Below are positions 26,624 through 61,324 of a DNA stretch of 64,000 bases, one piece after another. The stretch is taken from positions 682,001-746,000 of the forward strand of contig NZ_WKJI01000001.1 in NCBI RefSeq assembly GCF_009674685.1, read 5' to 3'. The position numbers were made by a program, and so were the translations under genes. The notes under the pieces are model-generated. The model was not told the DNA's origin. It saw only the letters and a list, made by a program, of their open reading frames with translations, and ran no database searches. Numbering within the stretch: position 1 is the stretch's first letter; every line of letters starts with the position of its first letter. This stretch comes from Pedobacter puniceum. Its GTDB lineage: Bacteria > Bacteroidota > Bacteroidia > Sphingobacteriales > Sphingobacteriaceae.

Positions 26624-26626
26624 TAC

Positions 26627-28607: not shown

Positions 28608-28611
28608 CTTC

Positions 28612-35119: not shown

Positions 35120-38100
35120 ATGACATTTAAAGCATATCATGCTTATTTAATTGCCTTTTTATTATGTTTCAGTTCTTTCATGCCTTTACAGGCGCAAACA
35201 TTAGCTCCTCATATTCAAAAAATAAATCATGAAGCAAAACCTTGGGTGTTTTGGTATTGGATGCATGCATCTTTCTCTAAAGAAGGTATCACTGCCGATT
35301 TAAAAGCCATGAAAGAGGCTGGTATAGCCGGTGCTTATATTGCACCTATTAAAGGCAAAACCAATCCGCCTTTGTATGAGCCTGTGATAGAAACCTTAAC
35401 ACCAGCCTGGTGGGATATTTTCAAATTTGCTTTAGAAGAAGCTAAAAGATTTGATATTAAAATAGCCCTTTTGCCTAATGATGGCTTCGCTACCGCAGGT
35501 GGCCCTTGGATAACGCCTCAGCTATCTATGCAAAAAGTGGTTTACAGCACCACAACTGTAAAGGGAGGTAGCTTGTTTAATACTACTTTAAAACAGCCAG
35601 AAGCTTACCAAAATTATTATCAAGATATAGCGGTTTTAGCGTTTCCAACACCGGGTGGTAAAACACAAAGTACACAAGAAATAAAACCTTTCATAAGCAC
35701 CAGTAATGGGCAAGATGCTTCTTTTTTAGCCGAAACGGGGCATAAAAGGAACTTTGGTAGTAATGAGCCTTGCTGGATACAATACGCTTTTGATAAACCT
35801 TTTCTTTGTCGTTCTATTAAAATAAGCGTTAATAATTTCAATCATCAATCTAACAGATTATGGGTAGAGGTGAGTGATGATGGAAAAAACTTCAGAAGCT
35901 TAGGTCGTTTACAAGCTCCAAGAACGGGGTGGTTAGATTGGGATGCTCCAGTAACACACGAAATAGAGCCCGTAAGTGCAAAATATTTTAGGTTTGTGTA
36001 CAACCCAGAAGGTACAGAACCCGGTGCCGAAGATTTAGATGCTGCTAAATGGAAACAAAGCTTAAAAATTAACGGAATAGAGCTTTCATCATTACCAAAA
36101 ATACATCAGTTTGAAGGTAAAAGTGGTTTGGTGTGGCGAGTAGGCGAACATACTAAAACCATTCCTGATGATTTAGCCATACCCATTGCAACAGTACTCA
36201 ACATCAGCGATAAGCTAGACGCTAGAGGAAATTTAAAATGGACAGCGCCAAAAACAAATGCCGAGTGGACAATCATTCGTATAGGGCATACTTCTACCGG
36301 ACATAAGAACGAGACCGCTGGTGCTGGTAAAGGTTTAGAAGTTGATAAGTTTAATCCCGAAGCAGTAAAACTACAGTTTGATAAATGGTATGGCGAGGCT
36401 TTACGTGTAGCTGGTGCTGATTTAGCCAAACAAGTACTAGGTGTTTTCCATGTGGATAGCTGGGAGTGTGGTAGCCAAAACTGGTCGCCGGTGTTTATGG
36501 CCGAGTTTCAGAAAAGGAGAGGTTATGACCCTACGTTGTTCTTGCCAACTTTGGCGGGTTTCCCTTTAGCAAGCCCTGCAAAAGCAGAACAGTTTTTATA
36601 CGATATGCGCAAAACCATAGCCGAGTTGATGCATGATAATTTCTTTGTTACCCTTAAAAATTTAGCACAGCAGCATGGGGCCATTTTTACTGCCGAAACT
36701 ACAGCTCCGGTAATGATGGGCGATGGTTTAAAACATTTTGGTACGGTAGATGTGCCTATGGGCGAGTTTTGGGCTAAAAGTCCTTCTCATGATAAACCTA
36801 ATGATATGTTAGATGCCATTTCTGGAGCGCATATTTATGGTAAAAATATCATTCAGGCAGAGGCTTTTACTACTGTAAGGATGGAGTGGGATGAGCACCC
36901 CGGAAATTTAAAAACTTTGCAAGACAGAAATTATGCTTTAGGTGTAAATAAACTGGTTTATCATGTTTATGTACACAACCCTTGGTTAGATAGAAAACCC
37001 GGTATGACCTTAGATGGCGTAGGTTTATACTTCCAAAGAGACCAAACCTGGTGGGAGCAAGGCAAAGAATGGGTTGCTTATGCAGAGCGTTGCCAATCTT
37101 TATTACAACAGGGTAAGCCAGTGGCAGATTTAGCTGTTTTCGTTGGCGAAGAATATCCATCAAGAGCTATATTGCCTGACCGTTTGGTAAATACCTTACC
37201 GGGCATTTTTGGAGATGAAAGAGTAGCTGCCGAAGCGCAAAGAATGGCCAATAAAGCTTTGCCTACACAAAAAGTAGCAGGTGTAACAACTTCGGCCAAT
37301 ATGGCCCAGCCAGAGCGTTGGATAAACCCTTTAAGAGGTTATGCTTATGACTCTTTCAATGCGGATGTTTTACAGTTGGCTAGCTTTAAAAATGGTAAAG
37401 TTGTGTTTGCTAGTGGTGCCGAGTATCGCATTTTGGTTTTGCCCTTAAAACATCAGTTAAATCCTAACCAATATTATACAGAAACATCATTAGCTAAAAT
37501 TTTAGAATTGGTAAATGCAGGGGCGCTATGTATCATCGGCGATAAGCCACAATTTAAAACAGGTTTAAAAGCCGATGAAAAGCTATTTAACCATGTAGTG
37601 GAAGCTATTTGGGGTGGTACTTTTGAAAATATTAAAGTAGCAGGAAGCTATTACGAGTTTAAAAATTCAGGCAAAGGAAAATTCATTAAAGCTCCTTTTT
37701 TACCTCAAGATTTTAGCTTTTTAGGTGCTCATCAAGATGTTTTGGTAAAAGATACTAATGGAAAAGAAGCTCCTGCAATAGCCTGGAATCATCGTAAAAC
37801 CGCAACAAAAGATATTTACTTTATTGCTAACCAATTAGATAAAGAAAGAAATTTAAGTTTTGCTTTCAGCGTAAGCGATAAACAAGCTCGTTTATACGAT
37901 GCTGTAAGCGATACCAATATTCCGTTAAAGCAATATCAAGTTAAAGATGGTTACACGCATATCTCTATAAAACTCCCGGCAAACGGTTCTTTATTTGTAA
38001 TTTTTGAAGGGTCTTCATCCCTAAAGGAAATAAATAAAGGCTTCAACTATATCCAATATCAAAACCTAAAAAATATTTCTACTGCATGGAAGGTTAAGTT

Positions 38101-38545
38101 TAACCAAAGCCACGGTGGCCCTGCAGAAAGCATCATGTTAGATAGCTTACAAGATTGGAGCACCCACAGCAATCCGCAAATTAAATACTATTCTGGTACG
38201 GCTACTTACAACAATAGCTTTACACATAAAGCATCAAAAAACGAAGAAATATGGCTCGATTTAGGCGAAGTAGCCAATATTGCCAGTGTAAAAGTAAATG
38301 GTATAGATTGCGGTATTGTTTGGACACCTCCGTACCGAGTAAACATCAGCAAGGCTTTAAAGAAAGGCCAAAATCAATTAGAAATTAAAGTAAGCAATAC
38401 TTGGGCAAATCGTTTAATTGGCGACCAACTATTGCCAGAAGATAAAAGAATCACCAAAACAACAGCCCCTTTTAGGTTAGAAGGTAAAGCCTTAAATAAA
38501 GCAGGCTTATTGGGCACTGTTTCTTTATTAAAAGTTATAGAATGA
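35120..38545 (+). CDS. GH106 alpha-L-rhamnosidase-family glycosidase
   Basis: A signal peptide ends at LQAQ. The opening (KPWVFWYWMHASFSKEGITADLKAMKEAGIAGAYIAPI) and the following barrel with IKIALLPNDGFATAGGPWITP are the GH106 signature. Acidic residues in VFHVDSWECGSQNWSP and IFTAETTAP sit where the family places its catalytic carboxylates. Inserted jelly-roll domains follow, and the C-terminus has GTATYNNSFTHK, WLDLGEVANIASVKVNG and WTPPYRVNIS, a carbohydrate-binding sandwich. 1141 residues is usual. Known GH106 enzymes cleave alpha-L-rhamnosyl bonds in RG-I and RG-II. It overlaps the next ATG by four bases (ATGA), so the pair is translationally coupled. Confidence 0.9.
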   Translation: MTFKAYHAYLIAFLLCFSSFMPLQAQTLAPHIQKINHEAKPWVFWYWMHASFSKEGITADLKAMKEAGIAGAYIAPIKGKTNPPLYEPVIETLTPAWWDIFKFALEEAKRFDIKIALLPNDGFATAGGPWITPQLSMQKVVYSTTTVKGGSLFNTTLKQPEAYQNYYQDIAVLAFPTPGGKTQSTQEIKPFISTSNGQDASFLAETGHKRNFGSNEPCWIQYAFDKPFLCRSIKISVNNFNHQSNRLWVEVSDDGKNFRSLGRLQAPRTGWLDWDAPVTHEIEPVSAKYFRFVYNPEGTEPGAEDLDAAKWKQSLKINGIELSSLPKIHQFEGKSGLVWRVGEHTKTIPDDLAIPIATVLNISDKLDARGNLKWTAPKTNAEWTIIRIGHTSTGHKNETAGAGKGLEVDKFNPEAVKLQFDKWYGEALRVAGADLAKQVLGVFHVDSWECGSQNWSPVFMAEFQKRRGYDPTLFLPTLAGFPLASPAKAEQFLYDMRKTIAELMHDNFFVTLKNLAQQHGAIFTAETTAPVMMGDGLKHFGTVDVPMGEFWAKSPSHDKPNDMLDAISGAHIYGKNIIQAEAFTTVRMEWDEHPGNLKTLQDRNYALGVNKLVYHVYVHNPWLDRKPGMTLDGVGLYFQRDQTWWEQGKEWVAYAERCQSLLQQGKPVADLAVFVGEEYPSRAILPDRLVNTLPGIFGDERVAAEAQRMANKALPTQKVAGVTTSANMAQPERWINPLRGYAYDSFNADVLQLASFKNGKVVFASGAEYRILVLPLKHQLNPNQYYTETSLAKILELVNAGALCIIGDKPQFKTGLKADEKLFNHVVEAIWGGTFENIKVAGSYYEFKNSGKGKFIKAPFLPQDFSFLGAHQDVLVKDTNGKEAPAIAWNHRKTATKDIYFIANQLDKERNLSFAFSVSDKQARLYDAVSDTNIPLKQYQVKDGYTHISIKLPANGSLFVIFEGSSSLKEINKGFNYIQYQNLKNISTAWKVKFNQSHGGPAESIMLDSLQDWSTHSNPQIKYYSGTATYNNSFTHKASKNEEIWLDLGEVANIASVKVNGIDCGIVWTPPYRVNISKALKKGQNQLEIKVSNTWANRLIGDQLLPEDKRITKTTAPFRLEGKALNKAGLLGTVSLLKVIE

Positions 38546-40575
38546 TGAATAAGAAAATTTATATCAGCTTATTAGCTGGCTTTTTAGCTTTAAATAACAG
38601 TTACGCACAAACCAAAGCCATGGTTAATACAGCTGCTAGTCCTTACGCTAAGCTAAAAAGCCTTGATATGGGTGCTGTAAACTGGACAAATGGTTTCTGG
38701 GCAGAACGTTTTCAGGTATGTAAAGAAAGCATGGTGCCGCAATTATGGAAAGTTTATACCAGTGCAGACATCAGCCATGCTTACAGAAATTTTGAAATTG
38801 CTGCTGGTTTAGAGAAAGGAAACCATAAAGGTCCGTCTTTTCATGATGGCGATTTTTATAAAACCTTAGAAGCAGTAGCTAGCTTATATGCTTCTACCAA
38901 AGATGAGCAATTAAATAAAATGATGGATGAGGCTATCGCTACAATAGCTAAATCTCAGAGAGAAGATGGCTATATCTATACTAAGGCCATGATAGAAGAG
39001 CGAAATACGGGTATTCGAAATCAATTTCAAGACCGTTTAAGTTTCGAGGCTTATAATATTGGCCATTTAATGACAGCCGCTTGCATCCATTACCGGGCTA
39101 CTGGAAAGCGTTCTTTGTTAAATGTGGCAGTAAAGGCCACAGATTATCTGTACAATTTCTATCAAAAAGCATCGCCAACTTTAGCCAGAAACGCTATTTG
39201 CCCATCGCATTATATGGGTGTGATAGAAATGTATCGTACCCTTGGTGATAAAAGATATTTAGAGTTAGCCAAACACCTGATAGATATTAAAGGAAAGATA
39301 GACGATGGTACTGATGATAACCAAGATAGAATTCCGTTTAGAGAACAGAAGAAGGTGATGGGCCATGCCGTTAGGGCTAATTATTTATATGCTGGCGTTG
39401 CCGATGTTTATGCCGAAACAGGCGATGCTACCTTAATGAGCCAATTAGATAAGATGTGGCATGATGTCACGCAGCATAAAATGTATATCACCGGAGGTTG
39501 CGGTTCTTTATACGATGGTGTATCGCCAGACGGAACTTCTTACAACCCTACCGAAGTACAAAAAATACATCAGGCTTATGGCCGAGATTACCAATTGCCC
39601 AATTTTACAGCACATAATGAAACTTGCGCCAATATTGGTAATGTTTTATGGAATTACCGTATGCTACAGCTTAGCGGAGAGGCTAAATATGCCGATGTGA
39701 TAGAACTAGCACTTTATAACAGCGTATTATCAGGCATTAGTTTAGATGGTAAACGTTTTTTATATACCAATCCTTTAAGCTATAGCGATGCTTTACCTTT
39801 TAAACAGCGTTGGTCTAAAGATAGGGTAGAGTATATTTCATTATCTAATTGTTGTCCGCCTAATACCGTACGCACTCTAGCAGAAGTAAGTAATTACGCC
39901 TATAGCGTGTCTGATAAGGGTGTTTGGATAAATCTGTATGGCGCCAACGAGTTAAAAACTACTTTAAAAGATGGTTCTTCTTTATTAGTTAGCCAAGAAA
40001 CAGCTTACCCATGGAATGGCGATATTAAATTAACCGTTAAAGAGAGTAGCAAAAACCCATTCTCTTTCTTTTTAAGAATACCAGGTTGGGCTTCAAAAGC
40101 TAGTATCCTAGTAAATGGTAAAGCACTTGAAACGCCTGCTAAACCTGGCACATATGCCGAAATTAATAGAAATTGGAAAAAAGGAGATGTTATAAGTTTA
40201 ACTATCCCTATGGAAGCCGAGCTGATAGCAGCCAACCCATTGGTAGAAGAAAATAGAAACCAAGTAGCCGTAAAACGTGGCCCTGTGGTGTATTGTGCCG
40301 AGTCTGTAGATATGCCACAAGGTACCAGTGTTTTTTCTTTAACTATACCAGCAAGCGCCCAGTTTAAAGCCGTTCCTTTACAATTTGCAGATAGTAAAAT
40401 GATGGCTTTAGAAGCCGATGTAAAAATGGTAAAAGCACAAAACTGGACAAACCAACTTTACCAAAAAATAAACACCCAAACAGAGCAAGTAAAAGTAAAA
40501 TTGATTCCTTATTATGCATGGGGCAATAGAGGTCATGTAGCCGAAATGTCTGTATGGTTACCTTTTAGTAGATAA
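38542..40575 (+). CDS. GH127 (DUF1680) beta-L-arabinofuranosidase-family enzyme
   Basis: A signal peptide ends at NSYAQ. The (alpha/alpha)6 barrel shows DMGAVNWTNGFWAERFQVCKESMVP, GHAVRANYLYAGVADVYAETGD and MYITGGCGS. The zinc-site residues of the family are present: Glu and Cys in HNETCANIG and the Cys pair in SNCCPPNTVRTLAE; one Cys is the nucleophile in characterised members. A C-terminal beta domain follows (SLTIPMEAELI, VAVKRGPVVYCAES). Activities in GH127 include beta-L-arabinofuranosidase and the RG-II aceric-acid hydrolase. 677 residues fits. Shares ATGA with the GH106 gene. The long tandem repeat begins two bases after its stop. Confidence 0.9.
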   Translation: MMNKKIYISLLAGFLALNNSYAQTKAMVNTAASPYAKLKSLDMGAVNWTNGFWAERFQVCKESMVPQLWKVYTSADISHAYRNFEIAAGLEKGNHKGPSFHDGDFYKTLEAVASLYASTKDEQLNKMMDEAIATIAKSQREDGYIYTKAMIEERNTGIRNQFQDRLSFEAYNIGHLMTAACIHYRATGKRSLLNVAVKATDYLYNFYQKASPTLARNAICPSHYMGVIEMYRTLGDKRYLELAKHLIDIKGKIDDGTDDNQDRIPFREQKKVMGHAVRANYLYAGVADVYAETGDATLMSQLDKMWHDVTQHKMYITGGCGSLYDGVSPDGTSYNPTEVQKIHQAYGRDYQLPNFTAHNETCANIGNVLWNYRMLQLSGEAKYADVIELALYNSVLSGISLDGKRFLYTNPLSYSDALPFKQRWSKDRVEYISLSNCCPPNTVRTLAEVSNYAYSVSDKGVWINLYGANELKTTLKDGSSLLVSQETAYPWNGDIKLTVKESSKNPFSFFLRIPGWASKASILVNGKALETPAKPGTYAEINRNWKKGDVISLTIPMEAELIAANPLVEENRNQVAVKRGPVVYCAESVDMPQGTSVFSLTIPASAQFKAVPLQFADSKMMALEADVKMVKAQNWTNQLYQKINTQTEQVKVKLIPYYAWGNRGHVAEMSVWLPFSR

Positions 40576-48105: not shown

Positions 48106-49410
48106 CTATTTTAACTCCTTAACCAGCTCTTCTTCTTTCAATTCTTTTAAGGCCTTTGTTCGCCAGTAATTGGCTAAAATAGAACCCGAAATATTCATCC
48201 AAGGACTAAAAACTGCTGCTGCAAGTCCAACAGTACCCAATTTACCCATAGTACCAGCTAAGCCAGAAGCCATACCTCCGTTTTGTAAGCCTACTTCAAA
48301 AGCTATAGTACGGGCAGATGGCTTATCCATCCCCAATAACCTACTAAAGACATAGCCAAAAAAATAACCTGCTGCGTTATGAATCACAGCTACTAAAAAC
48401 AAAATCAAGCCTACTTGCATTAAATTATCTCTGCCGGCGGCTGTGGTTACAGTTGTAAAATAAATAATACCAGCCATAGAGATATAAGGCATCATCCCAT
48501 CTAAATTTTTAAATATGTAGGCTAATTGATGATAAGCAAAACCGATGATGATAGCTCCCGCAAAGAAGTTTAAAATCTCTACAGTTTCTAACAATGGTAA
48601 AGATAAATAAGTGCTAAAAATGGTCCATAAACCAGCTGATTGAGCTGTTAACCATAAGACAGCCATAATACTAAGGAATTTTACTTTTTGGGCTTCTTTT
48701 ACAGATGCTGTTTTTAAATAATCATGAATTAGAGCTGCCATGATAGGGACAATCACAATTTTGATAATCTCCATCATCATGTTGATGAATTTAATTTCTA
48801 TAAGCGTACCTGCTAATAATTTCATCAAAAAGGGTGTCATTAATGGAGCGAATAGGGTAGTGATAGCTGTTACCGTAACAGAAAGCACCAAATTGCCTTT
48901 AGCGATGTAAGTCATCACGTTAGAAGCCAAACCACTAGAGCAAGATCCTATCAGGATGATACCGGCAGCAATTTCAGTTTCAAAATGAAATATTTTAGTG
49001 AGGATAAAACCCATAATCGGCATCACGGTAAAATGGCATAATAAGCCAATGGTAATGCCTTTCCCGGTTTTGCTGATGCCTGTAAAATCCGAAATTCTCA
49101 TGTGCATGCCCATTCCAAACATCACCAATTGTATCACGATGAGGATGAGCCATTTGTTACGTAAATCAAAATCGCCCCATTTCTGGAAAGAGGCCGGAAA
49201 AATCATCCCGGCAACAACAGCCGTAATAATCCAAGCGGTATATTGATAGCCTTTTAAAGCAGGTAAAGCACCTATACCAATAGCTGTGGATATAGCTAGG
49301 CCTAAGGCTGCATATTTCCAAAGATGCGGAGCTTGTAAGCTTAAACCAATAACTAAAACGAGTAAGGCTATAAGAGCCAGAAACAAGCAAATTTTGCGTA
49401 ACATCAGCAT
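48106..49410 (-). CDS. BASS-family (bile acid:sodium symporter-like) transporter
   Basis: About ten to twelve membrane helices. Family marks are VIQLVMFGMGMHMRISDF, GLLCHFTVMPIMGF and ILIGSCSSGLASNVMTYIAKGNLVLSV, where the SCSSG...SN segment corresponds to the discontinuous helix site of the SBF fold. At 434 residues it is longer than bacterial ~330-residue BASS because of extra N-terminal helices. The family carries organic acids with sodium. It is the last gene of an operon with DUF1537 kinase and a RuBisCO-like protein, so it probably imports (or exports) the sugar acid they use. Confidence 0.82.
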   Translation of the reverse strand: MLMLRKICLFLALIALLVLVIGLSLQAPHLWKYAALGLAISTAIGIGALPALKGYQYTAWIITAVVAGMIFPASFQKWGDFDLRNKWLILIVIQLVMFGMGMHMRISDFTGISKTGKGITIGLLCHFTVMPIMGFILTKIFHFETEIAAGIILIGSCSSGLASNVMTYIAKGNLVLSVTVTAITTLFAPLMTPFLMKLLAGTLIEIKFINMMMEIIKIVIVPIMAALIHDYLKTASVKEAQKVKFLSIMAVLWLTAQSAGLWTIFSTYLSLPLLETVEILNFFAGAIIIGFAYHQLAYIFKNLDGMMPYISMAGIIYFTTVTTAAGRDNLMQVGLILFLVAVIHNAAGYFFGYVFSRLLGMDKPSARTIAFEVGLQNGGMASGLAGTMGKLGTVGLAAAVFSPWMNISGSILANYWRTKALKELKEEELVKELK

Positions 49411-49421
49411 GGTAAAGTTAT

Positions 49422-50087
49422 TTAGGAGTTGATGATTTTAGCCAATTCTTGTATCGCAATAGCAGGGCTTGCCAATATGGGTACAATTTTATCTTCGGCA
49501 CTTAAGCCATCAACCACACGGGCCATAGAAGCTTGCGCCAGCAAGATTACATCTACTTCTTTACTTAATGCTTTTAATGCAGTACCAACCATTTCATCGT
49601 GTTTAGCGGCATCTCCGCTCATCAAAGCTTCAAAAGCACCATCACAAAGCTTAGCAACCAAAGTAATTTCTTTGCCTGCAACTACGGCTCTTCTTCTTAC
49701 CAAATCGCTAGTAGGCTCTAAAGTGGTGGGTAGGGTAGCAATAACGCCAATGCTTTTACCAGTTTGTACAGCTTGGTCTGCCATGGCTTGGTCTACCCTA
49801 ATTACCGGAACTTGCGAAAGACTAGCGGCTGTTTCTACCGCAGCACCAATAGAAGAACAGGTTACCAAAATATAATCTGCTCCGGCTGCTTCTGCCGATG
49901 CTACCTGATTAACTACTCTTTTTGCCGTTGCAGGCGTAAGTGTTCCCTTGCTGATGACATCTTTAATCAAGCTATCATCAACCATGTTAAAAACTTTGGT
50001 GTGGGGTAAATGGGCTTCGCAAAGTCCTTGAAATAAAGGCACCAAGGTAGCAGAGGTATGGATTAATCCTAATGTTTTAGTTTGCAT
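49422..50087 (-). CDS. Aspartate/glutamate-racemase superfamily protein
   Basis: Two similar halves with the expected Cys-containing loops: LGLIHTSATLVPLF, ILVTCSSIGAAVETAA (first Cys) and, in the second half, VILLAQASMARVVDG, where the usual second Cys is replaced by Ala or Ser. A one-cysteine version suggests lyase- or isomerase-type chemistry (maleate isomerase or decarboxylase relatives) rather than amino-acid racemisation. 221 residues is typical. Eleven bp separate it from each neighbour. A sugar-acid step in apiose metabolism is possible. Confidence 0.7.
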   Translation of the reverse strand: MQTKTLGLIHTSATLVPLFQGLCEAHLPHTKVFNMVDDSLIKDVISKGTLTPATAKRVVNQVASAEAAGADYILVTCSSIGAAVETAASLSQVPVIRVDQAMADQAVQTGKSIGVIATLPTTLEPTSDLVRRRAVVAGKEITLVAKLCDGAFEALMSGDAAKHDEMVGTALKALSKEVDVILLAQASMARVVDGLSAEDKIVPILASPAIAIQELAKIINS

Positions 50088-50098
50088 ATATGTATGTC

Positions 50099-51472
50099 TT
50101 ATGAAATTTTTCCTGATTGTATTTGTTCAAAATAGTTGGGTGCACCTACTTGTCCGCCTTTAAAGTTTATTTCAATGCCATTGGCTGGCGAGTTGGGCGC
50201 ATAAGCTTTGCATAAAGGAGCTCCGGGACTCATTGGAGCTATCATTTCTACGGCTTCTATGCCTAAAGCTCTGGCAGCATAGCTAGAAGTGTCTCCGCCT
50301 GCTAATAGCAGTCTCTGTAGTTTAACTTCTTGTAAAATGGCTCTAGTGATATTGCCTAATGTAGTACCCAATAGGGCAGCAGAGGTTAGCTGCTCATCCT
50401 GTTTTAAGATTTGCCCAGTAGTGGCTAAACGGTCATCATCCGGACCTTTACTGGTATGGATAACCACATTTTTTTCTGCTTTTAACAAAGCAATAGCTTT
50501 AGCAATAACATCTTTCACTTCTTTATCTTGATGTTTGGCTATGGCTACCGTATCTAAAGCAATTTCTTCAAAACCATGGGCTACAGCCATGTTAATTTGC
50601 TGTGCAGTAACGGGCGAACAACTGCCAGAAACAACCAATAAAGGCTTTACAGCGCTAGGCTGAGGCCAATTTTCTTTGTTTTTGATGCGCCCAACCTTGT
50701 TCCAATGTAAGCCTAAGGCCATTTCTATACCAGATGATCCTACAGAAAAAAGCGGACAATCTTGAGGGGCGATATCCACAAGTAACTCGCCAATACTTTC
50801 CATATGTGTGGCGTCAATAGCATCAAAAAGTATCACTTCGTTTTCTTCTGCTATAAGTGCTTGAAGCTTTTCTTTTCTTTGATTGCTTTCTTTAGCGATA
50901 TCCAAAATATCAAACAAGCCAGTTTTTACCCGACTTTGTTTAGCCAGATGCAAGCGTAAATCACTCTCGGTTGCTGGCGTAGTAGGATGCTTGCTCATAG
51001 AGGGGTGGCGGTCTAAACGGTAAATTTGTCCTTGGCTACCTATCCCCATACGGGCATATAAATTACCAAAAGTACAATACCTGCCTAGGGCCGGGGCAGC
51101 AACCACTAAAGGTACTAACGTTTTAAAAACAGCCTTGCCTATTTCTATAGCCCTACCAATGTTTCCTCTTTCTGGCGAAGAGTCAAAAGTAGAGCAAACT
51201 TTATAATGCACATGCTCTGGATTGATAGCTTTTAAGGCCTCAAAAGCTGGTTGTAGTGTTTCTTGCATAGCTTGTGGATGCATGGTCCTGCTCATGCCGG
51301 CAATACCAATAGCTTGTAAATCTGGGTATTGTTGCAATTGCGTTTTGCTTGGCGCCGATATAAACAGCATAGTTTTAATACCTGCCTTACTCAAAAACTC
51401 AAGCGCATCTGTAGAGCCAGTAAAGTCATCCCCATAAAATGCTAGTAATAACCTTTTTGATGCTACGCTCAT
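50099..51472 (-). CDS. DUF1537 sugar-acid kinase, probable 3-oxo-isoapionate kinase (OiaK-like)
   Basis: I set the start at ATG 51472 (MSVASKRLLLAFYGDDFTGSTDALEF). Its ATGA overlaps the stop of the RuBisCO-like gene; a longer frame back to 51565 would only translate antiparallel sequence of that gene. Kinase marks: YGDDFTGSTDALEFLS, HYKVCSTFDSSPERGNIGRAIEIG, VVSGSCSPVTAQQI and LLLAGGDTSSYAARALG. In the published D-apiose pathway a DUF1537 kinase (OiaK) makes 3-oxo-isoapionate 4-phosphate, the substrate of a RuBisCO-like OiaX. The coupled neighbour supports that role; threonate or erythronate kinases are alternatives. 457 residues, longer than the 28612 paralog. Confidence 0.83.
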   Translation of the reverse strand: MSVASKRLLLAFYGDDFTGSTDALEFLSKAGIKTMLFISAPSKTQLQQYPDLQAIGIAGMSRTMHPQAMQETLQPAFEALKAINPEHVHYKVCSTFDSSPERGNIGRAIEIGKAVFKTLVPLVVAAPALGRYCTFGNLYARMGIGSQGQIYRLDRHPSMSKHPTTPATESDLRLHLAKQSRVKTGLFDILDIAKESNQRKEKLQALIAEENEVILFDAIDATHMESIGELLVDIAPQDCPLFSVGSSGIEMALGLHWNKVGRIKNKENWPQPSAVKPLLVVSGSCSPVTAQQINMAVAHGFEEIALDTVAIAKHQDKEVKDVIAKAIALLKAEKNVVIHTSKGPDDDRLATTGQILKQDEQLTSAALLGTTLGNITRAILQEVKLQRLLLAGGDTSSYAARALGIEAVEMIAPMSPGAPLCKAYAPNSPANGIEINFKGGQVGAPNYFEQIQSGKIS

Positions 51473-52716
51473 GCTTTTTTGCCAAATTTTTCTACAGAAA
51501 GGGCAAACTCTGGATATTGTTGTACCGCTTCCGCGATGCTTAAACCATTTACAGCTGCTTCCCATGCTTGTTTTAATGCCGTAACACCAGCACTAGCACC
51601 TTGTGGATGCGCTAAAATACCACCACCTGCCATGTAAAGAAGATCGGTAGTTTGGGTACGCCTATAAGTTTCTGGTGCTTGGCCACCCCATTGCCCTGAT
51701 GATACCACAGGCAAAATATTGTAGCCGCCTAACAAAGGTTTCTGACATGATTTGATAGATTTAACCACAGAATCGTCAGACTCCCAAAACTTATTTTGTA
51801 TACCATTAACATGGATTTGATCAACCCCAACCAAGCGCCATAACTTTTGGTAAGCCGGAAATTCTATCCCCAATAAAGGATGACGGTTAAGCATTCCCCA
51901 ACCGTTTCTATGTCCGTGGATACACAACTGTCTATTGTCGCAAAGTTTCTTAACACCTGCTAAGCCAACACTATTTAAGCTAATCATGGCGCAGGTACCT
52001 CCATGAGCAAGAATGGTATCGTAATTTCTTTGCATCTCATCTAGCTCATTGCTGATATTGAAGGCATACATTACTTTTTTACCTGTTTTATCAGCATGTT
52101 CATTAATCACCCTCATTGCTGCTTCTACTCTTTTAGCAAAAGGCGAATTGGCAGAGGACGACATCAATTCATCATCCTTAATAAAATCTATACCGGCAGT
52201 TACCAAAGTTTTTACCAAATCTGCGGTTTGCTCTGGCGACATGCCAATGCTAGGTTTGATGATGGTGCCTATCATAGGTCTATCGTAAACCCGAGTGAGC
52301 GCTCTAGAACCTGCAACACCAAAAGCAGGACCTTCAAAATGCTGTCTAAAAGAATCCGGAATTTCTATATCCATCAGCTTTAAGCCCGTAAATTGGGTAA
52401 GCTCATATAAATTTCCTTGCAGGGTAGAAATCATCACCGGAAGGTTATAGCCAAAATTTTCTATCGACCATGATATTTCTAAATTAGCCCTGTGGTATTT
52501 TTTGCCAGCAGTCATGATACCCGGAATAGCAGGTTCATCTACGGTTTCTAAGTATTGGATATTTTCTACCCGGGCAGCAAATCTATTTTTTAGCTCTTCG
52601 GTTTCGCCGGGTACAGCCACAAAAGTCCCTGATGATTGTTCGCCAGCCAATATTTGCGCTGCTTTTTCAATCTCTAAAGGTGTTTCTATGTAATAATGTG
52701 CGGTTACTCTTTCCAT
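51469..52716 (-). CDS. RuBisCO-like protein, probable 3-oxo-isoapionate-4-phosphate transcarboxylase/hydrolase (OiaX-like)
   Basis: Start chosen at ATG 52716 (MERVTAHYYIETP), one base after the preceding stop; the longer frame begins at a TTG inside the upstream gene. RuBisCO large-chain fold motifs remain: GTIIKPSIGMSPEQ (Lys175 kept, Lys177 position Ser), DFIKDDELMSSS with the Lys that is carbamylated in RuBisCO, CIHGHRNGW, and HVNGIQNKFWE. The loop-6 Lys of true RuBisCO is not evident, so CO2 fixation is not expected. Form IV proteins act on keto-sugar phosphates; OiaX converts 3-oxo-isoapionate 4-phosphate to 3-phosphoglycerate and glycolate. The DUF1537 partner and the GH140 gene elsewhere in the locus fit that. 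Confidence 0.85.
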   Translation of the reverse strand: MERVTAHYYIETPLEIEKAAQILAGEQSSGTFVAVPGETEELKNRFAARVENIQYLETVDEPAIPGIMTAGKKYHRANLEISWSIENFGYNLPVMISTLQGNLYELTQFTGLKLMDIEIPDSFRQHFEGPAFGVAGSRALTRVYDRPMIGTIIKPSIGMSPEQTADLVKTLVTAGIDFIKDDELMSSSANSPFAKRVEAAMRVINEHADKTGKKVMYAFNISNELDEMQRNYDTILAHGGTCAMISLNSVGLAGVKKLCDNRQLCIHGHRNGWGMLNRHPLLGIEFPAYQKLWRLVGVDQIHVNGIQNKFWESDDSVVKSIKSCQKPLLGGYNILPVVSSGQWGGQAPETYRRTQTTDLLYMAGGGILAHPQGASAGVTALKQAWEAAVNGLSIAEAVQQYPEFALSVEKFGKKA

Positions 52717-52717
52717 A

Positions 52718-55015
52718 TTATTGCTCAATAAAATTGATGATATCTTTTTTTCTGTATTCTGGTGTTACTTTCAAGTGTTTTAGTTTGCCGTTTTCCAAGG
52801 TGGCCTCAATGGTGGTTTGCTTGGGTGCATGTAGTTTAAAGCTTACATCTTTAGTTTTAGGCCAAGCGGGGAAAATCATAATTTTATCTCCATCGCATTG
52901 CATCAGCATTTCCTGTAAACCTATCATGCCAGAGCCTCCCCAGTTATGGTCTGGTGTCCAATCAAAACCTGGCCCCCAAAAGGCCGGAAATCTTCTGCCA
53001 GAGTCTTTCAATTTTAAAGTGGTTAAGCGGTAAGCTTCATCTGTTAAACCTAAACGGGCGGCAAAAATATTATCCTGTTTCCAACCTACATGACTTCTAA
53101 ATTTAAGCGCATCGGGGTCGTATTTGTAAGTATTGATAGCCGTATCTAAGCCTGTTTTTCCTAGTCCAAATATCCCCCAAGGGTAAACCGGATATAGCTG
53201 AGGTGTTTCTGTATTGTTGATACGCTCCCAAAGTTTAGCTGGGGCAATGGTAGTTTTACCCTCAACCTCACGATAAGTAATAGGAGGGATACGCTTCAAC
53301 ATGGTCTCCCATTGGGCTTTTTGTGTGGCAGATAAATAATTATCAGGCAAGGCCAGTAAACGTTCTAAAACTGTTTTTAGAGCGGCTATGGTAGCGTTAG
53401 CATTATAAGCCATTTTATAGGTCTCGGCAGCAGAACCTGGGTATAAAATCAAATGCCCATGAGCATCTAAAGTTTTGCTGCCTCTTTGCTTAGCTAAATA
53501 AGTATAATGCTCGTTAAAAAAAGTTAGGCAACTCTCTATAAAAGGTATGTATTTTTGGATGTCTTTACCCGCATATTTTTCTTGCTCTAGCATCATCATG
53601 CAAAACTCTAAAACGGTATCCCACTCGTATTCTAGCCAAGCATTATACTCCATACCTTTATCATAATCGGCAGGCCTTTTCCAGCCATATTCTGCCGGAT
53701 TTGGCAGTCCAAAATTTTCTAATTGCTCTGTAAAAGATGCTCCTTTATGCTTCCAGTAAAATTGGGTGCGTAGCTCGGCATTTTTTAAAGCATTCAGGTA
53801 GAAATTAAATTGCGGCAACATCAAATCAAAATCTCCTGATTTTAACATGGGCCAATACACCAATCTTTGGTTTTGAGCGGTATGCGTACCACCACCCCAA
53901 TTCCTAAAATCTGGAGTAAATTTTTGTGTGCTATCTGTTAAAGAAGGATCGTAAGTAAATAAGCCACCGTTAAATTTAGTAGGCCATTGCCCAAAAGCAT
54001 TACAGCCAAGCATATACCTAAAAAGCTGATAATTTCTACCTATTTGCCAATCCTCGGTATTTTCTTGGGCTTTGGTGTAGATATAAGAACGTTGCCAATA
54101 GTTGCGCCACCATTGTATGGTGTTTTCTTGTGCTTTCTGGTCTTTGATAGCCTTAAGCTGAGCAGCTTTTAATTCATTTTTCCAGCTGTTGATGTCTGGC
54201 TTTTGCGCCTGGTATAAAGTAATATTGATTTGCTGATATTTACTGGCTTTGATGCTACTTAAGCTCCAACCTTTAAAATCAGTATCCAGATATTTGCCTG
54301 TATGCATTCCGCTGGCTTTCATATTGCTTGCGCTGATGATTCCGCCTGAGGTTAAATACGCTAAAGGATTGTATAAACTATCTTGAATAGCTGCCAAACC
54401 TTGCTGTTTAACGGTAGCATCAAAAACAGTTTGCTTACGGTTTTTATGGTAAAAAAGGATGTTATTTTGCTCAAAATTGATACTATCGGCATAAACAATA
54501 ACGGGTTCTTGTGGTGCCCATTTCCAAGAGTTGGCATTGTTGGCTTTCCCTTTTAATGCCCTGTCTTGGTAGCGCCAGCTTTCATAAACCAATTGGGTGT
54601 GTATAGCTTCCTTACTTTTTACTTCAACCCTAATATTCGGATGAAAAACATCTACACTTATTTTTACAGTTGTGCCTTTAGCTCCATCAATGGTAATAAA
54701 ACCCTCTTTTAAATGAAGCTCTTGCTTAAAAGTACCATCAGCAAAAGGGTTTGGGCTTAGTTTTATTCTTACCCTGCCCAGCTTTAAAAGCATGTTATGC
54801 TCGTCAAAAGTACCGCTTTTAGATAAGTAAAAAAGGATGTCATTTCCCTCTGTCCAAACGTTTAAACCTATATCTCCACCTCCGCAAGGCATAGACTCTC
54901 CTGAATTTTTACTTTGCGTAAACCACACTGGGTGGTAAGAAGAAATATCTTGCGCAACAGCAGTTAACTGCAACGCTAAAAGGAAAATGAGGCTATATAA
55001 AGTTTGTTTTTTCAT
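52718..55015 (-). CDS. DUF5703-domain (GH95-like) glycosidase
   Basis: A signal peptide ends at AVAQ. The first ~270 residues fit DUF5703 (YHPVWFTQSKNSGESMPCGGGDIGLNVWTEGNDILFYLSKSGTFDE), a beta-sandwich. The rest is an (alpha/alpha)6 barrel with FNGGLFTYDP, NWGGGTHTAQNQRLVYWPML and WGPGFDWTPDHNWGGSGMIGLQEML. Order and motifs match GH95/GH65-like barrels, including an Asn/Asp-rich active site. GH95 enzymes remove alpha-L-fucose or L-galactose, both found in RG-II side chain A, but the substrate here is unassigned. Stop TAA is followed after one base by the RuBisCO-like ATG. 765 residues. Confidence 0.75.
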   Translation of the reverse strand: MKKQTLYSLIFLLALQLTAVAQDISSYHPVWFTQSKNSGESMPCGGGDIGLNVWTEGNDILFYLSKSGTFDEHNMLLKLGRVRIKLSPNPFADGTFKQELHLKEGFITIDGAKGTTVKISVDVFHPNIRVEVKSKEAIHTQLVYESWRYQDRALKGKANNANSWKWAPQEPVIVYADSINFEQNNILFYHKNRKQTVFDATVKQQGLAAIQDSLYNPLAYLTSGGIISASNMKASGMHTGKYLDTDFKGWSLSSIKASKYQQINITLYQAQKPDINSWKNELKAAQLKAIKDQKAQENTIQWWRNYWQRSYIYTKAQENTEDWQIGRNYQLFRYMLGCNAFGQWPTKFNGGLFTYDPSLTDSTQKFTPDFRNWGGGTHTAQNQRLVYWPMLKSGDFDLMLPQFNFYLNALKNAELRTQFYWKHKGASFTEQLENFGLPNPAEYGWKRPADYDKGMEYNAWLEYEWDTVLEFCMMMLEQEKYAGKDIQKYIPFIESCLTFFNEHYTYLAKQRGSKTLDAHGHLILYPGSAAETYKMAYNANATIAALKTVLERLLALPDNYLSATQKAQWETMLKRIPPITYREVEGKTTIAPAKLWERINNTETPQLYPVYPWGIFGLGKTGLDTAINTYKYDPDALKFRSHVGWKQDNIFAARLGLTDEAYRLTTLKLKDSGRRFPAFWGPGFDWTPDHNWGGSGMIGLQEMLMQCDGDKIMIFPAWPKTKDVSFKLHAPKQTTIEATLENGKLKHLKVTPEYRKKDIINFIEQ

Positions 55016-56449
55016 TTAAAAATCATCAGTTCTGAAAGATGAAAGCGGTAAGCCTTCGGTAGAAAAAAGTTCGCCTACAACAAAATCTTTAAAAGCATAC
55101 CTTACTGCAACAGGCTCTTTTACCATAGGAGAAGATACAACAACAGTACTGCCTTGTATGCTGGCTTTCGCCGGATAATATTGTTTATTGGCCCCGGCAA
55201 CTTCAAATTGTTGTAGCTCTTTGCCATAGCTGGTTAGGCCGTTAGGGGCGTTTTTAAATTTTACAGTGATAACGCTTCCGCTGATTTGGGTGCTTTCTAC
55301 TGCCGGACTAGCATAACCAAAGCCTTTTAAGCCATAAGTTTGGGCCAATGCTAATAAAGCCAAGCGGGTTCCAACTGGCTCTTTATGCATGGGGTGGATG
55401 TTGTTCTCTTCGCCAATATCTAACAAAACCGCCATGGCCGAGTTGCTAATCTTAGCTTCTGCTTTACGCTGGGCATCTCTAATATAGGCCGAATTATACT
55501 TGCCACCGTAATGGTAAGGAGGTAGCTGTGCATAGTTATAAGGGGCTATTTGCGCATAATAGAAAGGAAAATCTCCTTGTTTCCATTCGCTCCTCCAATG
55601 TTTTACCATAGCTGGGAATAAAGACTCGTACTGGTCTGGTCTTTCGTAGTTAGATTCGCCCTGATACCAAATACACCCTTTTATCGCATAAGGAATAATA
55701 GGTTTTAGCATGGCATTGTATAACAAAGTAGCTGTACGGTTAGGAGACTTTATACTATCTTGCCTTTGCGGGATGTTGATGTCCTTAAAATCCTGAAGGG
55801 CTTGTTTGCTCATCCAGGCTTCTGCAACAGAGCCACCATAACTGCAATTAATTAAACCGATTGGCACTTGCAGCATTTCTTGTAAAAGCCTGCCAAAATA
55901 ATAGCCCGTAGCACTAAAATTAGCAATGCTTTCTGGCTGTGCCACCTTCCAAAAAGAAGTTTTGCTGGTGTCTTGTGGTAATAATTGTGAACCTCTGGGT
56001 ACGGTATACACCCTAATATTTGGGTTAGCTGATTTTAGTACCGCGGCATTTGCACCCCAAACAGGTTGGCTTTTAAAGCCTTTCATGGGCATTTCCATGT
56101 TTGATTGCCCACCACATAACCAAACTTCGCCAATAAGAATATGCTGTAATTTTATATTTCCTGATGTGCTCTTAACCTTAATTTCCTGCTCAGTGAAGCT
56201 AGCTTTGGGTGTTTGTAATTGTACCCACCATTCGCCTTTACTATTGGCTTTTATAGTTTGCTGTTTATTATCCCAACTGCTATAAATGGATAGTTTTTCA
56301 TTTGGCTTGGTCCAACCCCAAAGCTTTACATCTGCCTGCTGCTGTAAAACCATATGGTTTGTAAAAACACGAGCCAATTTCACCTGAGCCTTTAATGAAA
56401 GACTGAGGAAAAGCAAACTCAGCACAAAGCTGTAAAAGCGTAAAATCAT
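55016..56449 (-). CDS. SGNH-family sialate O-acetylesterase-like enzyme
   Basis: A signal peptide ends at LKAQ. SGNH blocks are clear: CGGQSNMEMPM (Ser nucleophile), SYGGSVAEAWM (Gly), CIWYQGESNYER (Asn) and DIGEENNIHPMHK (His pair). Residues ~28-100 and the last ~90 form beta-sandwich flanks, normal for the sialate O-acetylesterase family (DUF303). In a pectin locus it probably removes O-acetyl groups from RG-II or RG-I sugars. It opens the minus-strand operon (55016-56449 then DUF5703 with no gap). 477 residues. Confidence 0.85.
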   Translation of the reverse strand: MILRFYSFVLSLLFLSLSLKAQVKLARVFTNHMVLQQQADVKLWGWTKPNEKLSIYSSWDNKQQTIKANSKGEWWVQLQTPKASFTEQEIKVKSTSGNIKLQHILIGEVWLCGGQSNMEMPMKGFKSQPVWGANAAVLKSANPNIRVYTVPRGSQLLPQDTSKTSFWKVAQPESIANFSATGYYFGRLLQEMLQVPIGLINCSYGGSVAEAWMSKQALQDFKDINIPQRQDSIKSPNRTATLLYNAMLKPIIPYAIKGCIWYQGESNYERPDQYESLFPAMVKHWRSEWKQGDFPFYYAQIAPYNYAQLPPYHYGGKYNSAYIRDAQRKAEAKISNSAMAVLLDIGEENNIHPMHKEPVGTRLALLALAQTYGLKGFGYASPAVESTQISGSVITVKFKNAPNGLTSYGKELQQFEVAGANKQYYPAKASIQGSTVVVSSPMVKEPVAVRYAFKDFVVGELFSTEGLPLSSFRTDDF

Positions 56450-59250: not shown

Positions 59251-60126
59251 CTAAGCCCCATAAAGCCTATGCATCACTATAACATGTGGTAAGGTAATCA
59301 GCGAAAGCAGGATAAAGGCTTGTCCGATATTAAAATCAAAGAAATAGAGGTAGAAGCCAAATCCCGCAAGGGAAATAAAGCTAAAAGGTAGCATGGCTAT
59401 AAAGAAATCTCTTTTAAGCTTTTGATAATGTTGGGTATAGAAAATCACCTGATGCTGGGTAGATTGTAAAGCATGCCACAAGCAAAAAACTACAATAAAA
59501 CCAAATAATAAAGGCGTGAAAAGATACCATAAGGTTACCAAAACAAGCTGTAAGCAATATTTAAAAAAATGCTGCTTTTGGTAAATATAGATGCTGATGA
59601 GGTAAGCAGCACCGAGTAATAATAAGGTTGCTATTTGCCAGTTAGTTAAAGAAAGCGGACTGGTATCATAAATAAATTCGTTAAAATTACCTTTGCCAAT
59701 CATGGCTTTGAAGATAAATAGTGCTTCTTCCAAATGTAAAACTACAGGGAAAGCTAGTAAAATAACTCCCCACAAAATAGAGGGTATGTATTTAACATGC
59801 TCATTCTCGAAATTAGACTGACCAAAATGATGGAAAGAAACCATGAAAAATATAAGCAAAGCTGCTAAGGGTATAAAGTACCATAAAAGCGCATAAGCAG
59901 CTATAATCCCTAAATAAAGCGCAAGAAATTTTAGCATTCCCCACCAGTTCTGCTCTTTACGGTATAAATGGTCGTTAGCACCATGCGGAATACCTATAGT
60001 GCATAATAAAATGCCGGCCAAAAGAACCTGCGTAATAGGGCCAAAGGGGAAGAAATAAAAAAGCAGCAGCAATGCAAACTGCAAAATCATTTGTAGGTTA
60101 AACAATTTAGAGTTGATGTATATCAT
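59251..60126 (-). CDS. blh: Beta-carotene 15,15'-dioxygenase, Brp/Blh family
   Basis: Seven or more membrane helices and the His-bearing motifs of the family: TIGIPHGANDH, SFHHFGQSNFE, CLWHALQSTQHQ and TLPHVIVMHRLYG. The enzyme cleaves beta-carotene into two retinals, the chromophore of the rhodopsin encoded 1.3 kb upstream. 291 residues. Four bp after crtY stop, so the two are one transcript. The octamer array follows directly. Confidence 0.92.
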   Translation of the reverse strand: MIYINSKLFNLQMILQFALLLLFYFFPFGPITQVLLAGILLCTIGIPHGANDHLYRKEQNWWGMLKFLALYLGIIAAYALLWYFIPLAALLIFFMVSFHHFGQSNFENEHVKYIPSILWGVILLAFPVVLHLEEALFIFKAMIGKGNFNEFIYDTSPLSLTNWQIATLLLLGAAYLISIYIYQKQHFFKYCLQLVLVTLWYLFTPLLFGFIVVFCLWHALQSTQHQVIFYTQHYQKLKRDFFIAMLPFSFISLAGFGFYLYFFDFNIGQAFILLSLITLPHVIVMHRLYGA

Positions 60127-60130
60127 AGGT

Positions 60131-61324
60131 TTATTTGATGAAATAGCGAACTAATGATTTTAAAAACAACAAGATAGGTAATTTTGAAAATATCATCATC
60201 TCTTCTTTAATGCTGGTCTCTTCGTCCAGAAACTTTAATATTCTTGGGGTAGGTTGTTTTTTAAAAAGTGTCTTAAAAATTTCTTTACCACGCTGCGGCT
60301 GCGCTACTAAAATTTGTAATAACAAAATATCATAAAGTCTAAATCGCCAAGGCCTATAAGTGGTAGGTATGGCACTATGGCTAACCAAAGCTTTAGCTAC
60401 ATCATCTGCATATTTAGCCATTCTTTTAAATCCGTAGCCTGTGGTAGGTTTAATAGCTCCGGCTAAGGTTCCTAAATAAATAACATTTTCATGCTTATCT
60501 AAAGTTTTACGTTTATTGTCAAAATGGGTAGTCATGGGTATAGCACCAACTTCTGTTTCTATAATCTCGAAAGATGTGTTTTTGCTTGCCAAGTAGTTTT
60601 TTAAGATTTCCTCGGCTTCAGTGATACTCAGTTTGGCTTCTCCAAAACGGGTTAGTTCTACCAAAGATTCGCTATCAGAAAAGGGCAATTCATACATAAA
60701 TTGGGTATGGCCAAGCTGTGGTATCTCAAAATCCATTAAAGTCATCCGTGTAGCATCAAAACTGGCATGCTGCATTTTAATCCTCCAACCCACAAAAGAT
60801 TGCCATATTAAAATATGTTGCTCTCGTTTCTGGTTTAAATAAGTTTTAAGTCTTTTAGAAGAAAAAATATCTTCCCTTTCTGGTAGGGCAGATAAAAATA
60901 GTCTCTCGGTTTTCCAAGAGCTGTCTTTAGTTTTGATGCTTAAATCAGGGTTTTGCTGATAGTTTTCAAATGAAGTATACAGCCAGGTAATATTTTCGCA
61001 GCCCGATAAAAGGCCTTTCATCTTTTTATAAAAATCCTGACTTCTGATATGGTAATAAGCATATGGGTAAATGCTACCACTTTTAGAAGTGATATGAGCA
61101 TTGTGAGAATAATGCCAAACTTTATCTGCCAAAGGCTGCGGATAAAGCTCTTCTTTAGCCCAATAGCACCAAGTTCTATCATTAAATTTTTGCGAGTCTT
61201 GTTCTACCAAAACAAGCGTTTTATCTTTTAATAAACCATGTTTATATAAAGCATAAGCCATCCATAAGCCAGATGCACCAGCGCCAATAATGGTATAATG
61301 ATAAAAAGGATTTGTTGTTTGCAT
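60131..61324 (-). CDS. crtY: Lycopene beta-cyclase, CrtY type
   Basis: An FAD-binding GxGxxG start (YTIIGAGASGLWMAYALYKHG), the NDRTWCYW motif, FEIPQLGHTQFMYELPF and LGTLAGAIKPTTGYGFKRM, characteristic of CrtY-type cyclases. It converts lycopene to beta-carotene. 397 residues, normal. Its product feeds blh, the next gene. Lycopene-forming genes are not in the window. Confidence 0.93.
   Translation of the reverse strand: MQTTNPFYHYTIIGAGASGLWMAYALYKHGLLKDKTLVLVEQDSQKFNDRTWCYWAKEELYPQPLADKVWHYSHNAHITSKSGSIYPYAYYHIRSQDFYKKMKGLLSGCENITWLYTSFENYQQNPDLSIKTKDSSWKTERLFLSALPEREDIFSSKRLKTYLNQKREQHILIWQSFVGWRIKMQHASFDATRMTLMDFEIPQLGHTQFMYELPFSDSESLVELTRFGEAKLSITEAEEILKNYLASKNTSFEIIETEVGAIPMTTHFDNKRKTLDKHENVIYLGTLAGAIKPTTGYGFKRMAKYADDVAKALVSHSAIPTTYRPWRFRLYDILLLQILVAQPQRGKEIFKTLFKKQPTPRILKFLDEETSIKEEMMIFSKLPILLFLKSLVRYFIK

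Follow-up and report, generated by a model that had tools for sequence, protein, structure and literature searches.

A stretch of 64,000 nucleotides from Pedobacter puniceum (contig NZ_WKJI01000001.1, positions 682,001 to 746,000; hereafter the window, to which all positions without a locus name refer) contains a minus-strand operon that encodes a RuBisCO-like protein (RLP), a DUF1537-family kinase, an Asp/Glu-racemase-like protein, and a BASS-family transporter. Gene linkage, a curated protein family model, and chemical reasoning suggest that these four genes probably constitute a catabolic cassette for L-aceric acid of rhamnogalacturonan II (RG-II). Aceric acid is an RG-II sugar of plant cell walls (PMC12168206). 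The source genome comprises 3.9 Mb in 10 contigs.

Operon structure

The cassette lies within a six-gene run that extends from 56449 to 48106 with intergenic gaps of 11 bases or less. Its genes, in order of transcription, are as follows:

55016 to 56449, minus strand, SASA-type carbohydrate esterase, first gene of the operon (PF03629, 64.4 bits)
52718 to 55015, minus strand, DUF5703 protein, early in the operon and ahead of the RLP (PF18961, 385.7 bits)
51469 to 52716, minus strand, RLP (Pfam RuBisCO_large PF00016, 218.6 bits)
50099 to 51472, minus strand, DUF1537-family kinase (SBD_N PF07005, 202.1 bits; NBD_C PF17042, 121.6 bits)
49422 to 50087, minus strand, Asp/Glu-racemase-like protein of 221 residues (Asp_Glu_race PF01177, 81.3 bits)
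48106 to 49410, minus strand, BASS-family transporter (SBF PF01758, 119.6 bits)

The open reading frame of the RLP spans 51469 to 52728. Its ATG lies at 52716, 1 base past the stop codon of the preceding gene, and an ATGA at 51472 to 51469 joins the RLP stop codon to the kinase start codon; 48106 to 52716 is therefore the correct extent of the four genes. The original prediction for this locus, which assigned the RLP and kinase to apiose catabolism, had described both the ATGA overlap and a shared operon for the four genes. Both descriptions proved accurate, and the operon is longer than given there, since the SASA and DUF5703 genes stand ahead of the RLP in the same orientation, separated by only 0 to 1 base. 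The placement of the OiaX/OiaK-like pair inside an RG-II degradation region was also right, as was the assignment of an apiosidase-family GH140 gene starting at 13821. On the plus strand, the window carries RG-II-type enzymes of the GH140, BT_1020-like, GH2, GH78, GH106, and GH127 types, four of which are used below:

13821 to 15215, plus strand, GH140 apiosidase family (Apiosidase PF13204, 394.8 bits)
16303 to 18147, plus strand, BT_1020-like protein, an RG-II marker (PF24067, 406.8 bits)
35120 to 38545, plus strand, GH106 family, 4-base overlap with the GH127 gene (PF17132, 548.5 bits)
38542 to 40575, plus strand, GH127 aceric acid hydrolase (NF049879, 1177.6 bits; PF07944)

Linkage of the cassette to the aceric acid hydrolase

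Two reports describe BT1003, a GH127 enzyme of Bacteroides thetaiotaomicron, as a hydrolase of aceric acid (3-C-carboxy-5-deoxy-L-xylose) (PMC5698469; PMC10850190), and the former also shows that other GH127 enzymes act on other substrates. The window GH127 protein exceeds the cut-off (950 bits) of the NCBIfam equivalog model NF049879, "aceric acid hydrolase," and shares with BT1003 both this model and an RG-II context; BT1003 by itself only releases the sugar. The N terminus of the window protein looks like a signal peptide. The best match in the PDB was 5mqo (854.7 bits, compared with 402.3 bits for the next entry), the structure of BT1003; the identity of the window protein is drawn from the NCBIfam model instead.

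An RLP alignment scan of one genome per species, covering 84,980 species, yielded at least 553 relatives, and the analysis continued with the 80 best loci. Their RLPs are 61 to 80% identical to that of the window, and by record titles they belong to Bacteroidota, Balneolota, Verrucomicrobiota, and Planctomycetota, with one metagenome-assembled genome (MAG) titled Williamsia. Searches with tblastn recovered the kinase at 76, the racemase-like gene at 75, and the BASS transporter at 74 of the 80 loci, and most absences coincided with cut contigs. The commonest neighbor cluster outside the cassette, homologous to 38542 to 40575 of the window, was GH127, present at 40 loci compared with 17 for the next cluster. 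By tblastn, GH127 was found in the stretch around the RLP at 42 of the 80 loci, GH140 at 4, and a BT_1020-like gene at 8. At 26 loci, the GH127 gene sits immediately ahead of the RLP in the same orientation and ends less than 400 bp before it. As to the other two operon genes, a DUF5703 homologue (at least 45% identity) occurred near the RLP at 14 loci and a SASA homologue at 13, with at least 45% identity at 9 of these.

The association was also seen at the level of whole genomes, for which the 47 non-MAG records among the 80 loci were searched. GH127 was present in all 47 (best match in each genome, 47% identity or more and 699 bits or more), and 44 of them exceeded the NF049879 cut-off, the remaining three scoring 943, 917, and 885 bits. 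At an E value of 1e-80 or less, a threshold that weaker homologues could escape, GH140 was found in 39 of these genomes and missed in 8, and a BT_1020-like gene was found in 44. Three genomes, Aurantibacter (L061), Pseudozobellia (L062), and Bythopirellula (L079), carry GH127 and the operon with neither GH140 nor a BT_1020-like gene at this threshold; the gap between GH127 and RLP is 35 bases in L061 and 28 bases in L062. Among 395 genomes sampled from the class, the NF049879 cut-off was exceeded in 12 and the RLP clade was present in 5, all of them among those 12; the racemase-like gene occurred in these 5 and in no other. A sixth RLP match in this sample (G142) was distant, at 28% identity. 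The hypergeometric probability of the overlap, which ignores kinship, was 1.0e-8, or 3.3e-7 when the P. puniceum genome itself was left out.

Two further loci, L109 and L110, keep the gene order GH106-GH127-SASA-DUF5703 and lack the four cassette genes and exactly those. GH127 and SASA are separated by 88 bases in L109 (7903 to 7992) and by 187 bases in L110 (7804 to 7992), whereas this position is occupied by the four genes in L013, L024, L027, and other loci. At this site, the four genes are gained or lost as a unit beside the hydrolase. In the seven class genomes that have the over-cut-off hydrolase but no RLP, L109 and L110 among them, none of the four cassette genes was found within approximately 8 kb on either side of it.

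Family scores, phylogeny, and catalytic residues of the RLP

PF00016 and PF02788 both scored over their cut-offs in the window RLP, which places it in the RuBisCO-like superfamily; its AlphaFold2 model had a pLDDT of 86.0. The closest NCBIfam models of the RLP and the kinase were OiaX and OiaK, respectively. On the OiaX model NF042437, the window RLP reached 517.8 bits, below the cut-off of 700, while three named OiaX controls scored 789.9, 777.1, and 773.8. RLPs that neighbor the apionolactonase ApnL scored lower than the window RLP, namely, 471.6 in Shinella, 453.2 in Microvirga, and 444.1 in Paraburkholderia, with nearby ApnL matches of 312.8, 899.2, and 770.4 bits (cut-off, 750). Falling short of the OiaX cut-off thus says nothing against apiose; it counts only against the decarboxylase equivalog. 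Similarly, the window kinase scored 437.8 bits on the OiaK model NF042436, below its cut-off of 700, and a Paracoccus kinase that adjoins a true OiaX also failed with 441.3 bits, for which reason the OiaK cut-off was dropped as evidence. The BASS transporter matched the PanS model with 209 bits, below the cut-off of 400.

An IQ-TREE phylogeny was computed from 42 rows comprising the window RLP, 27 of the 80 loci, 13 plasmid RLPs (from 366 plasmid records with an RLP match), and one distant row; the cut sequence of L076 was omitted here and from the residue counts. The window RLP, its 27 relatives, and a Rufibacter RLP formed a 29-row clade (support, 99/95) that was sister to the three named OiaX proteins (100/100) rather than grouped inside them. 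The RLPs linked to ApnL in Shinella, Microvirga, and Paraburkholderia fell into another group (98/93). The root of this tree should not be trusted, because the outgroup branch is very long.

The catalytic lysines K158, K184, and K313 of the window RLP are fixed in 81 of 81 clade sequences. With RuBisCO numbering mapped onto the window by motif and alignment, the equivalents of E60, N123, K175, K201, D203, E204, H294, R295, H327, K334, and S379 are likewise fixed in all 81. The window RLP thus has the catalytic lysines, the carbamate triad, and most phosphate-site residues in common with RuBisCO and with RLPs such as the MtnW enolase and 3nwr. Several RuBisCO residues are replaced in it, namely, W66 (by F), T173 (by I), K177 (by S), H298 (by W), and G381 (by Q), and these positions are also replaced in the RLPs used for comparison. 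The three named OiaX decarboxylases, all over the cut-off, have D instead of E60, G instead of N123, and Q instead of H327. We dropped the catalytic residues as a test of substrate, as they split the clade from the OiaX decarboxylases but not from the ApnL-linked RLPs and bear on the reaction only. Since the ApnL-linked RLPs have the same residues and lower OiaX scores, neither criterion separates apiose from aceric acid.

The racemase-like protein retains one catalytic cysteine

As had been noted in the original prediction, one of the two usual cysteines is replaced in the racemase-like protein. C77 and an LAQASM motif in the region of the second cysteine are fixed in 76 of 76 sequences, and the position of the second catalytic cysteine is alanine in all 76. 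The AlphaFold2 model, built from 52 of these sequences, had a pLDDT of 95.5 and matched aspartate and glutamate racemases in VIA (aspartate racemase 1jfl: Z score, 21.7; root mean square deviation, 2.5; 207 residues aligned), although identity to the ten best VIA rows was only 12 to 19%. PF01177, the fold, and the first catalytic cysteine are thus those of the Asp/Glu racemase superfamily; the pair of catalytic cysteines is not.

Racemization by a two-base mechanism requires both cysteines, but a single base suffices for a 1,2-proton shift, and an isomerase role would thus fit this protein. By elimination and mechanism, we propose that it acts as an aldose-ketose isomerase on a sugar acid, which would set it apart from the Asp/Glu racemases. 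It may alternatively serve as an epimerase or a decarboxylase; arylmalonate decarboxylase is a one-cysteine member of the racemase family.

Proposed pathway for aceric acid

L-Aceric acid is 3-C-carboxy-5-deoxy-L-xylose, CHO-CHOH-C(OH)(COOH)-CHOH-CH3. The substrate, the order of steps, each activity, and the products described here are those that we infer from linkage, conservation, and chemistry. The GH127 hydrolase would liberate aceric acid outside the cytoplasm, and the BASS carrier would take up its anion. The single-cysteine racemase-fold protein would then convert the aldose into the 2-ketose HOCH2-CO-C(OH)(COOH)-CHOH-CH3, and the DUF1537 kinase would phosphorylate C1, the CH2OH next to the ketone, to give a homologue of the OiaX substrate. 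The OiaK substrate 3-oxo-isoapionate is HOCH2-CO-C(OH)(COOH)-CH2OH; the aceric ketose is its exact homologue, with CHOH-CH3 in place of CH2OH, and this homology would explain the likeness of the RLP and kinase to OiaX and OiaK. In the final step, the RLP would shift the carboxyl group from C3 to C2 via a RuBisCO-type enediol and hydrolyze the C2-C3 bond. CO2 lost from C3 would leave the enediol of 5-deoxypentulose 1-phosphate and would be added at C2, so that 3-phosphoglycerate and L-lactate are formed; the lactate would retain C4 and have the L form by the L-xylo configuration. Compared with RuBisCO and other RLPs, the proposed substrate is distinct in being a 5-deoxy ketose 1-phosphate that already bears a carboxyl group. 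We propose that its enediol is that of ribulose 1,5-bisphosphate minus the second phosphate. The overall equation balances with one water and without any redox cofactor, which agrees with a conserved four-gene core that lacks a dehydrogenase.

For RLPs of the apiose pathway, a review names both decarboxylation and transcarboxylation (PMC6302742). We prefer transcarboxylation with hydrolysis for the window RLP because the clade keeps E60, N123, and H327, which are replaced in the OiaX decarboxylases; these residues lend the assignment modest confidence. Tentatively, and with somewhat more doubt than belief, we put forward that Bacteroidota, Verrucomicrobiota, Planctomycetota, and Balneolota may possess a complete redox-free aceric acid pathway that combines a one-cysteine racemase-fold isomerase with an RLP cutting to 3-phosphoglycerate and L-lactate. 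Among the titles and abstract beginnings of the literature searched, which covered few subscription journals, no catabolic pathway for aceric acid was found; nor was the fate of the free sugar in the cell. The release of aceric acid by GH127 is known.

Comparison with apiose-type loci

The OiaK/OiaX branch of the D-apiose pathway was reportedly described by Carter et al. in 2018. It shares with the window the pairing of an RLP with a DUF1537 kinase in an operon and, under the pathway proposed here, the type of RLP chemistry and a substrate of the form HOCH2-CO-C(OH)(COOH)-R. In contrast, the window RLP belongs to a separate clade, both window proteins score below the OiaX and OiaK cut-offs, and the cassette is linked to GH127 more than to GH140. 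The window also has a racemase-like isomerase candidate and a BASS transporter where apiose loci have a dehydrogenase, ApnL, and an ABC transporter. Each of five apiose-type plasmid loci (Salipiger, Paracoccus, Shinella, Microvirga, and Paraburkholderia) combines an ApnL match with a Gfo/Idh/MocA dehydrogenase and ABC transporter genes, and the stretch examined contains a PGDH-like gene in three of them. None of these four gene types is present in the window operon; at the OiaX locus of S. meliloti, too, none was found within 10 kb.

A search with the ApnL model NF049900 gave no match in the P. puniceum genome, where the standard controls were silent as well. ApnL was undetected in 45 of the 47 operon genomes, and the same search was positive in 3 of 3 control plasmids, with scores of 671.8, 632.4, and, for Shinella, two pieces of which the better reached 182.8, all below the cut-off of 750.

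RLP-DUF1537 kinase pairs were also found beside short-chain dehydrogenase (SDR) and permease genes or TRAP transporter and dehydrogenase genes at L094 (7986 to 12669), L100 (7998 to 12663), L092 (6276 to 12722), L096 (1672 to 10651), and L097 (7962 to 16429). The stretches examined of these five loci contain no annotated ApnL-type neighbors, and they probably represent further RLP pathways. On the Croceibacterium plasmid L095 (6175 to 10528), from an alphaproteobacterium, genes for a GH127-like protein, an RLP, and a DUF1537 kinase directly abut, with neither a racemase nor a BASS gene adjoining; this cluster possibly serves another sugar acid.

Evaluation of alternative explanations

Several observations weigh against the assignment to aceric acid. 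No GH127 was seen around the RLP at 38 of the 80 loci, some of which lie on short contigs, and the cassette is missing from 7 of the 12 class genomes in which a hydrolase exceeded the cut-off. The full-length stretch L017 carries the RLP and GH127 but lacks the kinase, racemase-like, and BASS genes, and L016 lacks the kinase. In the window itself, GH127 is on the opposite strand, 7.5 kb from the operon and with unrelated genes between. BT_1020-like genes occur in 44 of the 47 operon genomes, nearly as universally as GH127, so that the genome-level association is in part one with RG-II in general and is only a little tighter for GH127. Related genomes are not independent of each other. The Croceibacterium plasmid L095 was rejected as independent support: its GH127-like gene, the only one seen joined to an RLP outside the clade, is nearest to 5opj (123 bits; 5mqo only 64.9 bits) and not of the aceric acid hydrolase type. 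ApnL-linked RLPs share the catalytic residues of the window clade, and 2 of the 47 operon genomes, both Runella, have an ApnL homologue of approximately 270 bits. Finally, we know of no aldose-ketose isomerase with the racemase fold.

The original prediction held that the RLP and kinase degrade 3-oxo-isoapionate derived from GH140-released apiose, with dehydrogenase, lactonase, and oxidoisomerase encoded elsewhere. OiaX and OiaK are indeed the best models (517.8 and 437.8 bits, the missed cut-offs proving little), and GH140 is present in the window and in most operon genomes. Its statement that genes for apiose oxidation are not seen in the window agrees with our results, although the families concerned, Gfo/Idh/MocA and PGDH-like, are too general to be informative, and the genome search covered ApnL. 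That search answers the suggestion to look for an apionolactonase elsewhere in the genome, with no match and the silent controls mentioned above. Placement of the RLP away from apiose enzymes had been named as grounds for abandoning the idea, and this applies in part, as the RLP groups neither with the OiaX clade nor with the RLPs linked to ApnL. The racemase-like protein and the transporter have no role in the apiose pathway, as had been stated, but both receive one if the substrate is aceric acid. Apiose would moreover require redox genes outside the conserved core, and GH140 lies around the RLP at only 4 of 80 loci, compared with 42 for GH127, and was missed at the E value limit given above in 8 of 47 operon genomes. 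When examined through family cut-offs, phylogeny, a search for ApnL, and linkage, apiose was not supported as the substrate, and we consider it very unlikely.

All of the evidence for aceric acid as the substrate applies equally if the RLP is a plain decarboxylase that converts the ketose 1-phosphate to CO2 and 5-deoxypentulose 1-phosphate, from which an aldolase encoded elsewhere would form dihydroxyacetone phosphate and acetaldehyde. The sister clade in the tree bears the NCBIfam name decarboxylase, and the product would resemble the 5-methylthioribulose 1-phosphate handled by other RLPs (PMC6302742). This variant is nevertheless unlikely, because the E60, N123, and H327 equivalents are kept and no aldolase family appeared among the 19 neighbor clusters scanned with Pfam, a scan that covered the larger clusters. 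Alternatively, the cassette could act on a different pectin sugar acid, for instance a tetronate or a Kdo or Dha (3-deoxy-D-lyxo-heptulosarate) fragment, and its link to GH127 could merely reflect shared RG-II loci. DUF1537 kinases also act on tetronates according to NCBIfam model names, BT_1020-like genes are almost as widespread as GH127, and RLP-kinase pairs occur elsewhere with SDR or TRAP genes. The 26 direct GH127-RLP junctions argue against such a substrate, as do the three genomes in which GH127 was found while GH140 and BT_1020-like genes were both missed at the E value limit. So does the chemistry, since the RuBisCO-type reaction needs a tertiary carbon that bears a carboxyl group, which linear tetronates do not have. 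A second cluster in the window also suits Dha better, and we judge this explanation highly improbable. The cluster, which is located inside the RG-II gene run, and its adjacent transporter are as follows:

25481 to 29766, plus strand, Fe-dependent alcohol dehydrogenase, DHDPS-family aldolase, PdxA-family dehydrogenase, and second DUF1537 kinase
29794 to 31377, plus strand, transporter

The second kinase is nearest to the D-threonate kinase model (135 bits, below the cut-off of 450). By stereochemical reasoning, aldol cleavage of Dha would yield pyruvate and a tetruronate that is reduced to D-threonate, so that the four genes could form a Dha catabolic route ending in dihydroxyacetone phosphate.

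Other genes of the window

Proteins with DUF6298 (10662 to 13814) and DUF5703 (52718 to 55015) domains are encoded within the RG-II-type gene runs and are likely uncharacterized glycan-active enzymes; the DUF5703 protein is likely secreted. At 59251 to 61324 on the minus strand, a lycopene cyclase gene adjoins that of a Blh-type beta-carotene dioxygenase. These retinal synthesis genes suggest a candidate rhodopsin somewhere in the same genome.

Implications

If the cassette does catabolize aceric acid, one more RLP clade would gain a function, and the Asp/Glu racemase fold would gain a new kind of reaction. The fate of aceric acid after its release from RG-II would then become directly testable with four genes.

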